DNA from: Runella sp.
GTDB taxonomy: Bacteria > Bacteroidota > Bacteroidia > Cytophagales > Spirosomataceae
DNA length: 32,069 nt
Direction of reading: 5' to 3'
Assembly (NCBI RefSeq): GCF_027484545.1
Contig: NZ_JAIXST010000183.1
Coordinates: forward strand, 1 to 32,069
Every line of letters starts with the position of its first letter. The first letter of the stretch is position 1. Made by a program: the position numbers and the translations under genes. The notes beneath the pieces were generated by a model. It searched no databases. It saw only the letters and a program-made list of their open reading frames with translations, and had not been told where the DNA came from. Shown one piece after another: positions 27,825 through 31,125 of the stretch.

Positions 27825-27840
27825 ATCGTAATATTGCGAT
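27825..27840 (+). promoter_or_regulatory. Candidate ArsR operator upstream of arsR
   Basis: ATCGTAATATTGCGAT is a near-perfect palindrome 18 bases before the arsR start, as expected for autoregulation. A closely matching site lies at 28204-28219. Confidence 0.6.
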
Positions 27841-27858: not shown

Positions 27859-28185
27859 ATGGGGCTTTCAAAAACCGAAGTATTTAGTGATAACGATAAT
27901 CGAATCGCTGATTTGGCCAAAGCTTTTGCGCACCCGGCGCGGGTAGCTATTCTGCGGTTGTTGGCACAAAAAAAAGCATGCATTTGTGGTGATTTAGTGG
28001 ATGAATTGCCGCTTTCGCAGGCTACAGTGTCGCAGCATTTAAAAGAACTCAAACGGATTGGTATTGTTAAAGGAAGTATTGAACCGCCGCGCGTTTGCTA
28101 TTGTATCAACGAAGAAGTATGGGAAGAAGCTGAACAGGCTTTTGATGGGCTGTTTGCCGTTTTGTTGAAAGCAAGTTGCTGTTAA
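27859..28185 (+). CDS. arsR: ArsR family metalloregulator
   Basis: 108 residues, the normal length. The winged helix-turn-helix spans about 15-90: LAKAFAHPARVAILRLLAQ, then CICGDLVDELPLSQATVSQHLKELKRIGIVKG. Cys residues are near the metal-binding region (ACICGDLV) and at the C-terminus (KASCC), which fits As(III)-type sensing by thiols. It lies upstream of the sigma-factor, phosphatase and arsM genes and is preceded by a near-perfect palindrome that is repeated after its stop. The likely role is arsenite-released repression of itself and of the downstream operon. Confidence 0.9.
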   Translation: MGLSKTEVFSDNDNRIADLAKAFAHPARVAILRLLAQKKACICGDLVDELPLSQATVSQHLKELKRIGIVKGSIEPPRVCYCINEEVWEEAEQAFDGLFAVLLKASCC

Positions 28186-28203: not shown

Positions 28204-28219
28204 ATCGTAATATTACAAT
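28204..28219 (+). promoter_or_regulatory. Second ArsR-type operator before the sigma-factor operon
   Basis: ATCGTAATATTACAAT matches 14 of 16 bases of the arsR operator. It lies directly before the start of the sigma-factor gene (28225), pointing to ArsR control of the downstream genes. Confidence 0.55.
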
Positions 28220-28224
28220 TAAAA

Positions 28225-28916
28225 ATGTGCTATACAGCTTCAACGAAAGAACTGCCTAATTTTTGGCGAAACACGGGACCAACGTCGCTGACTACGTGCG
28301 TAAACGCGTTCGTGACGAAGAGATCTCAAAGGACCTAACCCATGATGTCTTTGTGAAAATCTACACGTTTTGCCAAAAACACGATTTTTCGTGCGAAAAG
28401 GCAGGAGTTAGCAATTTGCGCTCCTGGATTTTTCAGATTGCACAAAATACAATTGTGGATTATGCACGCCGCGAACAAAGGTTTGAACGTTCTGAAAATT
28501 TACCTGAAACAGCCTCAGTCGCTGAAACTAATGTGTATTCACAAGCCCAACAATATATTGAACCCTTGTTGTCGTTGATGCCAATGGCGTATGCAGAACC
28601 GCTTCGTTTGGCTGATTTGGAACTTTTGCCACAGCAGGAGATTGCGAACCGGTTGAATTTGAGTTTGTCAGGTACAAAATCGCGCATTCAGCGAGGCAGA
28701 GAAAAATTGCGAACATTGTTCGAAGAATGTACCTACGTAGAATTGGACCCTCGGGGACACCTTATTTCGATGGAAGCGAAGCCTTCTTGTCAAACCCTCA
28801 AAAAAAATTCTGAAAATGATGCGTCTTTTTCAAGTTGCGGTCGTCTTGACGGAGAATTTTATCAAAATAAAACTTCCCATGAACAATCAACAACTTGCTA
28901 TTCTACTTGTCTTTAG
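28225..28916 (+). pseudogene. sigZ: SigZ-like ECF sigma factor, frameshifted
   Basis: The natural start is ATG 28225 (MCYTASTKELPNFWR...), but the sigma sequence continues in another frame (from 28263 as KHGTNVADYVRKRV). One extra A at 28269-28271 would join them. Region 2 is visible (DEEISKDLTHDVFVKIYTF) and region 4 at LPQQEIANRLNLSLSGTKSRIQRGREKL. SigZ-type factors are often beside arsR in Bacteroidota. The tail beyond EAKPSC overlaps the next gene's start. One extra A in the A8 run (28800-28807) would instead end the protein at 28813, as QTLKKKF. Two lesions in one gene suggest either decay or consensus error. It would direct RNA polymerase to an unknown regulon. Confidence 0.78.
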
Positions 28917-29769
28917 TGTGACAAGTCTGTCGGCGCAAAATTTCAAACCTCGCCCTTTAGTCCCAATTTCGGGACATTACAAAACATTGGCTCAGACAGA
29001 CGCTCAGCCGCAATCTAACTCTGCCATTGACCGCCGTCATTTTCCGTTGGATAGCTTACCCGACAGCTATGCTAAACGCTTGAAAATGACACCTGAATAC
29101 CTGACTTTACCGCCAAGTGTTTTTGAAATTGGCGAATTTCCTGCCAACAGCTCAGCTCAAACGCGGACAGAATTGGATTTCCTGCTCAAACTTCAGGCCG
29201 AAGCCCGCACGCCTGAAAAATTGGACGAATCGCTCTCTTTTGCCAATGTATATTACAATAACGACACTAAACCGGGCGATGCAGATTATGAAGTGATGCA
29301 AAAGAACCTGTTTCATATCGGGCGGCAAATAAACGGTTTTAATGCACAGCAATTACCGCTTACGGCTGTTATGATGCGACGAGTTTGGAAAGATGCATCT
29401 TATTACTTCTGGGCCTTGAAGTTTAAATACAATCGTGCTCGTCCGTATCAACTTGACTATCAACTGAAAAATGTGACAGACCCGTTTTTTCAGGCGTATC
29501 CAAGCGGACATTCGTCAAGTTCGTACGTTGCGGCTTACATTTTTCAAGAGTTATTACCCGAAAAAACTGAGCTTTTTGTGAAAAATGCGTACGATATGGC
29601 TTATTCAAGAGAACTATTGGGGGTGCATTTTCCGAGTGATTCAGAAGCGGGTCGAAAATTTGCCCGTCAGTTTGTGAATGAATTGCTTAAAAATAAAGAG
29701 TTCCAAGCTGATTTAATGGCGGCAAAAAAAGAAGTAGAACGTCTTAAAACACAACAAGTAAGTAAATAA
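28879..29769 (+). CDS. PAP2-type class A acid phosphatase, secreted
   Basis: 296 residues from ATG 28879, chosen because it begins a signal peptide (MNNQQLAILLVFSVTSLSAQ). All three phosphatase signature blocks are present: K-(X6)-RP in KFKYNRARP, PSGH in PSGHSSSSY, and SR-(X5)-H-(X3)-D in SRELLGVHFPSD. This is the class A nonspecific acid phosphatase / vanadium haloperoxidase pattern, in which the His is the nucleophile and the enzyme acts in the periplasm on phosphomonoesters. It lies between the sigma-factor and arsM genes, so it may be part of the arsenic operon, for example scavenging phosphate when arsenate competes. That role is inference only. Confidence 0.9.
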   Translation: MNNQQLAILLVFSVTSLSAQNFKPRPLVPISGHYKTLAQTDAQPQSNSAIDRRHFPLDSLPDSYAKRLKMTPEYLTLPPSVFEIGEFPANSSAQTRTELDFLLKLQAEARTPEKLDESLSFANVYYNNDTKPGDADYEVMQKNLFHIGRQINGFNAQQLPLTAVMMRRVWKDASYYFWALKFKYNRARPYQLDYQLKNVTDPFFQAYPSGHSSSSYVAAYIFQELLPEKTELFVKNAYDMAYSRELLGVHFPSDSEAGRKFARQFVNELLKNKEFQADLMAAKKEVERLKTQQVSK

Positions 29770-29787
29770 TTAACGTATTTTTATACC

Positions 29788-31125
29788 ATGAACACAGATC
29801 AAACACTCAAAGAAATTGTCCGTGAAAAATACACGGAAGTAGCGACGCAGTCGAAGACCCAAAACGCAGCCTCCTGCTGCGGTTGCGGCCCGACTTGCAG
29901 TACCGATGAAGATTTTATCGGCATTATGGCCGAAGATTATACTAAGCTCAGCGGTTACGTGGCCGACGCTGATTTAGGATTGGGCTGTGGTTTGCCTACT
30001 CAATTTGCCCAAATTAAAAAAGGAGATACCGTCATTGATTTAGGAAGCGGAGCCGGCAACGACGCCTTTGTAGCTCGTGCCGAAACGGGCGCAGAAGGCA
30101 AAGTAATTGGTATTGATTTTACCGAAGCCATGCTCACCAAAGCCCGTGCCAATACTGAAAAATTGGGATTCAATAACGTTGAATTTAGGTTTGGAGATAT
30201 TGAGCAAATGCCGGTAAATGATAACGTTGCCAATGTAGTGGTAAGCAATTGTGTCCTTAATTTAGTGCCTAATAAAGCCAACTTATTCAAAGAAATTCAC
30301 CGTGTTTTAAAACCCAACGGCCATTTTAGTATTTCTGATATTGTATTGGTAGGTGAGTTGCCTGAAAACCTTCGTCACGCTGCTGAAATGTACGCTGGTT
30401 GTGTATCAGGAGCGATTCAAAAAGAAACCTATCTTGGATTGATTGAACAAACGGGATTTGTGAACAGTACTTTGCAAAAAGACCGCGAAATTTTCCTTCC
30501 CGACTCCATTTTGAGTACGTTCTTGTCAACGGCTGAAATTGCTGCCTTTAGAAACAGTGGAACCGGGATTTACAGCATTACTGTTTTCGCTGAAAAACCT
30601 GCCACCTCTGAGGCGTTGACCGAGCTCGAAATACGTACTGCAAAACCATCTGATTTTTCGGCAGTGGTGGGATTATTGAAAGAAGTCGGACTTCCGACCG
30701 AAGACCTCAATCCTGCTCTCCCTCATTTCCTGTTGGCTTTTGCTAATGAAAAATTGGTGGGTTCAGCGGGAGTGGAGATAAACGGAACGTATGGATTGTT
30801 GCGTTCTGTGGCCGTTTCTGAAGGATTCAGGAAGTACAAAATTGCCCGTCGTTTGGTGAATGATTTAACCAAACAAGTACGATTGGAAGGCGTAAAAGAA
30901 CTGTATTTGATTACGACGACGGCCGATTCGTATTTTGAAAAACAGGGCTATGAGCGCATAAGCAGAGATAATGTGCCTGCTGAAATTGCTCAATTACAGC
31001 AATTTAGCAGCATTTGTCCGAGTTCGGCGGTGGTAATGAAAAAGGCGATTGAAAAGCCTAAAATTAAGCTGTCTGATTTGGAAGCGGTATCGTCTTGCTG
31101 CACACCCAATTCGGGGTGCTGTTAG
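29788..31125 (+). CDS. arsM: Arsenite methyltransferase ArsM fused to ArsN2-like GNAT domain
   Basis: 445 residues. Residues about 1-275 are ArsM: a Cys-rich start (CCGCGPTC, 30-37), Cys67 in LGLGCGLP, SAM motif I DLGSGAGNDAF (84-94), Cys155 in SNCVLNLV and Cys205 in YAGCVSGA, the set that binds As(III). It adds methyl groups to arsenite from SAM. Residues about 280-420 are an ArsN2-type GNAT domain, ending in the FSSICPSSAVVMKK signature. The GNAT pyrophosphate loop reads RKYKIA instead of R-x-x-G-x-G/A, so CoA binding is doubtful. The tail SCCTPNSGCC adds another four Cys. Typical ArsM proteins are about 270 residues, so a fusion is clear. The gene follows PAP2 by 18 bases. Confidence 0.93.
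   Translation: MNTDQTLKEIVREKYTEVATQSKTQNAASCCGCGPTCSTDEDFIGIMAEDYTKLSGYVADADLGLGCGLPTQFAQIKKGDTVIDLGSGAGNDAFVARAETGAEGKVIGIDFTEAMLTKARANTEKLGFNNVEFRFGDIEQMPVNDNVANVVVSNCVLNLVPNKANLFKEIHRVLKPNGHFSISDIVLVGELPENLRHAAEMYAGCVSGAIQKETYLGLIEQTGFVNSTLQKDREIFLPDSILSTFLSTAEIAAFRNSGTGIYSITVFAEKPATSEALTELEIRTAKPSDFSAVVGLLKEVGLPTEDLNPALPHFLLAFANEKLVGSAGVEINGTYGLLRSVAVSEGFRKYKIARRLVNDLTKQVRLEGVKELYLITTTADSYFEKQGYERISRDNVPAEIAQLQQFSSICPSSAVVMKKAIEKPKIKLSDLEAVSSCCTPNSGCC

Follow-up and report, generated by a model that had tools for sequence, protein, structure and literature searches.

The stretch of Runella sp. DNA analyzed here, which comprises 32,069 nucleotides and will be referred to as the window, carries a single gene encoding both the arsenite methyltransferase ArsM and the GNAT-type protein ArsN2, with the ArsN2 domain nested between the core of ArsM and ArsM's own Cys-rich C-terminal tail. 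We propose that the gene product acts as an As(III)-induced two-enzyme detoxification protein, in which ArsN2 would acetylate a glutamate-like amino-arsenical. This reading, in which induction, activity and substrate are all predicted, is tentative, and we assign it a probability of roughly 45%.

The open reading frame (29788-31125, + strand) starts with ATG, codes for 445 amino acids and is free of stop codons between the two domains. Both parts passed the curated cut-offs of their families in NCBIfam. The ArsM model NF008823/PRK11873 matched residues 2-273 (1.5e-106, 355.9 bits, cut-off 263) and the ArsN2 model NF040501 matched residues 291-419 (8.2e-45, 151.7 bits for the whole protein, cut-off 125), the ArsN2 domain alone reaching 154.3 bits. 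Judged by family membership, one chain combines a true ArsM with a true ArsN2. An earlier note on this DNA had described ArsM motifs followed in the same frame by an ArsN2-type GNAT domain and a C-terminal SCCTPNSGCC, and all of these features were recovered. Cys67, Cys155 and Cys205, which we take to be the catalytic cysteines of the ArsM part, are kept in 18 out of 18 fused and 26 out of 26 unfused ArsM rows of the alignment (the 18 fused rows represent 17 genomes, L014 and L133 being one genome), and CC-x5-CC terminates all 18 fused ORFs. Along the chain, the ArsM core with the three cysteines (residues 1-270; 29788-30597, +) is followed by a linker variable in length and sequence (residues 271-283; 30598-30636, +), the ArsN2 GNAT domain (residues 284-420; 30637-31047, +) and the ArsM-type Cys-rich tail IEKPKIKLSDLEAVSSCCTPNSGCC (residues 421-445; 31048-31122, +). 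The two best sequence matches among solved ArsM structures span residues 47-243. Identity of the fused protein to five named relatives, all from Runella, amounts to 73-84%, and to that of Arundinibacter roseus to 62%. The fold model of the whole chain was weak (mean pLDDT 63.3, pTM 0.44, 7 sequences; residues 1-144 mostly with pLDDT <50), and does not permit any claim of contact between the two domains; only its GNAT part was used, the fold matches of which include 2r8v and 3d2p.

The earlier note had read the protein as ArsM followed by a GNAT domain with a Cys-rich tail. The order and the tail hold, but the tail is that of ArsM, with ArsN2 inserted between core and tail. Three or more cysteines within the last 14 residues are found in 65 of 74 unfused ArsM proteins. 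Of the nine others, five are distant and encoded on plasmids (L047-L051) and one is truncated where its contig ends (L181); the remaining three are those of L100, L189 and L103, in which the protein ends in CC, contains a single Cys there or lacks the tail, respectively. In eight unfused ArsM tails, KP[KR]xx[LI]xxL precedes the cysteines, as seen when KPKIKLTDL...ACTPGGGCC of the unfused ArsM of L112 is compared with KPKIKLSDL...CCTPNSGCC of the window. The window's tail scored up to 75 against unfused ArsM ends, a value as high in 0 out of 500 shuffles, whereas its best score against 63 unfused ArsN2 ends was 27, which was reached by 220 out of 500 shuffles. The tail as a feature of ArsN2 was therefore rejected. 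A hint to the contrary came from the unfused ArsN2 proteins of L110 and L112, which end in PKLEFR and PKLQLR, similar to the KPKIKL part. However, the best score of the Cys-free part of the tail against ArsN2 ends was reached by 466 out of 500 shuffles, and the hint thus carries no weight. The picture is also less than fully clean in that 9 of the 63 unfused ArsN2 proteins have at least two cysteines among their last 14 residues. Since the window's tail resembles unfused ArsM ends and stands after ArsN2, as in 18 out of 18 fused ORFs, ArsN2 is, on sequence grounds, nested in ArsM. Simple loss of the stop codon between arsM and arsN2 was rejected as a full explanation, given that the tail of ArsM stands behind ArsN2. 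The fusion shows a route by which a catalytic domain can land before the Cys-rich tail of an enzyme.

Among 222 genomes of the family, the fused stop-free frame was present in all 13 genomes of the genus and in five genomes belonging to four other genera. As the open frame recurs in 18 genomes, a sequencing or assembly error is excluded, and the stop or frameshift between the domains that the earlier note had named as a refutation is absent. The other refuting outcome it had named, a ubiquitous fusion, does not apply with 18 of 222 genomes; in a phylum sample of 395 genomes the fused frame occurred, among the rows listed, only in two Runella (G000, G010). Its statement that ArsM and ArsN2 are normally separate agrees with the genes found elsewhere, which mostly stand apart. 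At 1e-20, at least 123 of the 222 family genomes matched the fusion alignment with an ArsM, an ArsN2 or both, and among the matches listed the fused frames score highest. Each of the 13 genus genomes contains one match to the fusion alignment at 1e-20 (up to seven candidates scored per genome) and exactly one ArsN2 match at 1e-20, namely the fused one, so that at this threshold the fusion provides their sole ArsM as well as their sole ArsN2 match. In the order sample, ArsN2 above cut-off was detected in 42 out of 291 genomes, mostly as frames of 140-181 aa in contrast to the nested domain of the window. In G520 (L219), arsN2 begins in frame directly past the stop codon of arsM, and in G401, G404 and G445 the two are separate genes, with gaps of 6, 21 and 36 bases between them and a Cys tail on every ArsM.

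The expected inducibility of the fused gene is based on the arsR gene upstream (27859-28185, +), encoding an ArArsR-type repressor of 108 aa (NF033788, 66 bits, cut-off 55). Directly upstream of arsR lies operator 1, ATCGTAATATTGCGAT (27825-27840, +), an exact 16-base core, and a near copy, operator 2, ATCGTAATATTACAAT (28204-28219, +), is located past arsR. The ArArsR site footprinted with DNase in Arsenicibacter rosenii contains ATCGTAATATTGCGAT (PMC11868830). Searching with a 20-base form of the operator and up to 3 mismatches yielded 4 matches (2 sites, both strands) versus 0.04 expected. Both operator-like sites were found at the fusion locus in 13 out of 13 genus genomes; away from this locus, one such site was seen at one mismatch in each of G422, G428 and G429, and the pattern reversed as a control matched once across all 13 genomes together. 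ArArsR needs Cys41, Cys80 and Cys82, its As(III) ligands, in order to respond to As(III) (PMC11868830), and these three are present in 6 out of 6 aligned ArsR rows; the ArsR of the window carries cysteines at positions 41, 43, 80, 82, 107 and 108. Operator 2 sits 1-82 bases ahead of arsM in 17 out of 18 fused ORFs, the window being the exception. When all arsM genes were considered, a second operator-like site (up to 1 mismatch) beyond that of arsR was seen within 120 bases before arsM in 27 of 74 unfused and 17 of 18 fused genes.

In the window, two genes are placed between operator 2 and the fused gene. The first (28263-28916, +) encodes a SigZ-like ECF sigma factor (PRK09637, 9e-41, 139.8 bits, below the cut-off of 212) and has an uncertain TTG start; the second (28816-29769, +), the true start of which is perhaps further in, encodes a phosphatase of the PAP2 superfamily (PF01569, 2.3e-10, 40.8 bits, cut-off 27.2). 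Neither gene had a match at 1e-10 in the other fused loci, and the sigZ type of the window was detected at 1e-25 in 3 of 222 family genomes. In L226 and L227 the sigZ-like gene again has as neighbours a PAP2 gene and a gene that by eye is ArsC-like; it lies approximately 2 kb from an ArsN2 match, and in L227 it is also near arsR. SigZ-like ECF genes recur in ars loci (window, L226, L227, L114, L115), with operator-like sites of 1-2 mismatches upstream where checked (window, L114, L226, L227), and possibly represent a second layer of arsenic regulation. An efflux gene of the ACR3 type is present above cut-off in 11 out of 13 genus genomes; in the genome of the window it is located on a different contig, where its neighbour is an ArsC-like gene.

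According to our proposal, As(III) or methylarsenite would release ArsR, allowing the fused protein to be made. The ArsM core would methylate trivalent arsenic using SAM, and ArsN2 would use acetyl-CoA to acetylate the alpha-amino group of arsinothricin, its hydroxy precursor or a similar glutamate-like arsenical. The flexible Cys tail, presumably the arsenic-binding arm of ArsM, would hang from the end of ArsN2 and could serve both sites. Fusion would fix a 1:1 ratio of the two activities and could allow an arsenical to be handed between the sites before a toxic intermediate escapes. For the ArsN2 profile, the nearest solved chains were the amino-acid acetyltransferases 5yge and 5yo2, which we take to be from Mycobacterium tuberculosis, closely followed by 3e0k and the N-acetylglutamate synthase 2r8v. 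The fused domain itself scored far below the cut-offs of the N-acetylglutamate synthase models (TIGR01890, 25.7 versus 202.85; PRK05279, 34.2 versus 344 bits). Because of this kinship with amino-acid acetyltransferases, and since arsinothricin is a glutamate analogue (PMC6465285), a glutamate-like arsenical is the preferred candidate substrate. Several observations considered below argue against the two-enzyme proposal, namely the atypical acetyl-CoA loop, the relaxed positions 364 and 403, ArsN2 loci without ArsM, the apparent loss of the domain in L155 and L171, the faster evolution of the ArsN2 part and the wider role suggested for ArsN2 of Lysobacter (PMC13163355).

Alternatively, though we regard this as somewhat unlikely, the two enzymes might do their usual separate jobs, with an unrelated ArsN2 substrate and no shared intermediate, and be joined for co-expression only. 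Unfused arsM and arsN2 are frequent neighbours in both gene orders, an adjacency that also supports the two-enzyme proposal. For the order, 46 unfused ArsN2 loci were fetched (45 above cut-off and L129 just below), and in 21 of them a same-strand arsM is located no more than 500 bases away, arsM coming first in 14 and arsN2 in 7; in one more it is 2.2 kb off. Adjacent pairs were also found on two Adhaeribacter plasmids and on replicons of the haloarchaea Haladaptatus and Natrinema, and two Paenibacillus plasmids carry arsM beside arsN1. As the unfused genes are often adjacent, the fusion joins frequent partners. In 24 out of 46 loci, no ArsM was detected in the fetched stretch, some stretches ending at contig ends, so that ArsN2 seems able to work alone. 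Joining for co-expression would also fit the variable, weakly constrained linker and the retention of ArsM in L155 and L171 in spite of the apparent loss of the nested domain there. Against it, ArsN2 is nested ahead of the tail, which is no mere read-through at the end, and the tail has been kept behind ArsN2 in every fused ORF.

The history of the fusion was examined using trees for both parts, from which the duplicate L133 was left out, as it was from the dN/dS analysis. In the ArsN2 tree (80 rows), the 17 fused rows group together (92/95; recovered in 93% of 200 bootstrap trees), although this tree is based on 143 columns, has long branches and does not star the fused group. In the ArsM tree (91 rows), the fused rows fall into two groups, the second of which includes the unfused L155 and L171, and at least three changes are required. 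All fusions as a single clade were rejected on the ArsM tree (p-AU 0.00055). A clade of the fused rows plus L155 and L171 was not rejected with p 0.21, a lenient value as these two were added after the tree was seen. The simplest account, and one that agrees with the ArsM tree, is a single gain followed by at least one loss in which the Cys tail was retained; two separate origins may also explain the tree. The nested ArsN2 was thus probably acquired once in the Spirosomataceae and kept by selection. The domain appears to have been lost, with ArsM kept, in the one lineage of L155 and L171, which suggests that it is dispensable there. Median dN/dS values in Runella were 0.058 for the core, 0.128 for ArsN2, 0.034 for the tail and 0.37 for the linker, all of them rough since synonymous change is near saturation. 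They were derived from twelve rows and 66 pairs, of which a dS filter of 0.1-2.5 left 34 for the core, 27 for ArsN2, 14 for the tail and 39 for the linker. On these values, the ArsN2 domain of the fusion appears to be under purifying selection, evolving faster than the ArsM core.

A more specific scheme, which we consider improbable at present, would have one Cys-rich swinging arm serving two sites, with ArsM methylating hydroxyarsinothricin or another amino-acid arsenical and ArsN2 immediately N-acetylating the product, which would otherwise be toxic. If true, it would give ArsN2 its substrate.

The residues of the ArsN2 domain bear on whether it is an acetyltransferase at all. Eleven residues that are nearly invariant in unfused ArsN2 (Asp306, Gly325, Arg339, Ser340, Thr376, Ala379, Phe383, Arg393, Pro397, Cys410 and Pro411) are all present in the window and in 18 out of 18 fused rows, except Ser340 with 17 out of 18. 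Two other positions are relaxed: Ala at position 364 occurs in 46 of 49 unfused and 9 of 18 fused rows, and Thr at position 403 in 42 of 49 and 6 of 18, respectively. The acetyl-CoA loop of GNAT proteins follows the pattern R/Q-x-x-G-x-G/A. In the window it reads RKYKIA, and Lys replaces the usual Gly at the fourth place in 11 out of 18 fused rows including the window, whereas Gly is found there in 4 of the 18 fused rows and in 26 of 49 unfused ones. Because of this atypical loop, binding of acetyl-CoA is unsure. A decayed GNAT, which the loop Lys would suggest, is weakened as a reading, since unfused ArsN2 shows the same loop variation. It is nevertheless conceivable, if quite improbable, that the GNAT part has no acetyltransferase activity here and instead serves ArsM as a module for arsenic binding or allosteric control via Cys410 and the tail, much as the earlier note had considered for a regulatory or binding role. 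This would fit the loop, atypical in 14 out of 18 fused rows, the invariance of Cys410 (18/18 fused and 48/48 ungapped unfused rows) and other ArsM frames that bear a C-terminal part resembling the chaperone ArsD (by eye); it is countered by the 23 out of 49 stand-alone ArsN2 rows that also lack the loop Gly, by the retention of most family-conserved residues and by the purifying selection on the domain.

Least probable of all is acetylation of a cellular amino acid or thiol (e.g., glutamate or a cysteine ligand), either for metabolism or to provide a ligand presenting As(III) to ArsM: ArsN2, clade 2 of arsN, has been placed near N-acetylglutamate synthases (PMC6465285), for ArsN2 of Lysobacter, alternative acetylation and a role extending beyond arsenic detoxification have been suggested (PMC13163355), and arsN confers arsenate resistance by a mechanism needing components like arsC or arsD according to a review (PMC12607644), but a location next to ars genes and downstream of ArsR operators argues for an arsenic-related role.

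Several known systems resemble parts of the locus. The arsRMC operon of A. rosenii SM-1 shares with the window the six Cys positions of ArsR and the operator core before arsR, and its arsM directly follows arsR; it differs in a separate arsC after arsM, with no ArsN2 in the excerpted account of the operon, whereas ArsN2 is fused here, and in the one footprinted operator of that account, compared with two sites known from sequence in the window (PMC11868830). ArsN2 itself is known from PMC6465285, which in its own words focused on ArsN1, and from NF040501, the cut-off of which the fusion passes with the conserved residues mostly kept. ArsN1, the arsinothricin N-acetyltransferase, is likewise a GNAT protein of ars operons (PMC6465285). 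The fused domain is by its family matches not an ArsN1: the ArsN1 models NF040503 and NF040504 were not among the 14 families matching it at E ≤ 1. Fusions in print are ArsN-ArsC and ArsN-ArsD (Chauhan 2009, cited in PMC6205960), which also place an ArsN-type domain on an arsenic-handling protein, there a reductase or chaperone and here ArsM, and the ArsRM of Brevundimonas sp. M20 (PMC10190100), in which an arsenite methyltransferase is likewise fused to an ars protein, the partner there being the repressor. No ArsM-ArsN2 fusion was found in searches of the open-access PMC literature.

ArsN2 is common in arsenic loci but still little understood in the literature cited here. Its joining to ArsM on a single chain in every sampled genome of the genus ties it to arsenic methylation. 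The fusion offers one construct for seeking the ArsN2 substrate, with unfused pairs and the relatives seemingly without the nested domain as natural controls.

Further unusual architectures were encountered among the loci examined. L114 (4464-5408) and L115 (4989-5933) encode a double GNAT protein of 314 aa adjoining arsM. The N-terminal half of that in L114 is ArsN1a-like (146.5 bits, below the cut-off of 170) and its C-terminal half is an ArsN2 (168.5 bits, above the cut-off of 125); by eye, the protein of L115 is almost identical. The ArsM frames with an ArsD-like C-terminal part, recognized by eye from a CCSTGVCG motif, are those of L221 (1075-2751), L222 (1130-2389) and L224 (1775-2965). 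Downstream of each lies an ATPase that by eye resembles ArsA, and in L222 a CC tail is again found at the end, after the added ArsD-like part. In addition, a gene for a YfcE-like metallophosphoesterase, scoring below the model cut-off, was present in many of the fetched ars loci, with 33 out of 116 searched sources carrying it (e.g., L046, 6354-7133).
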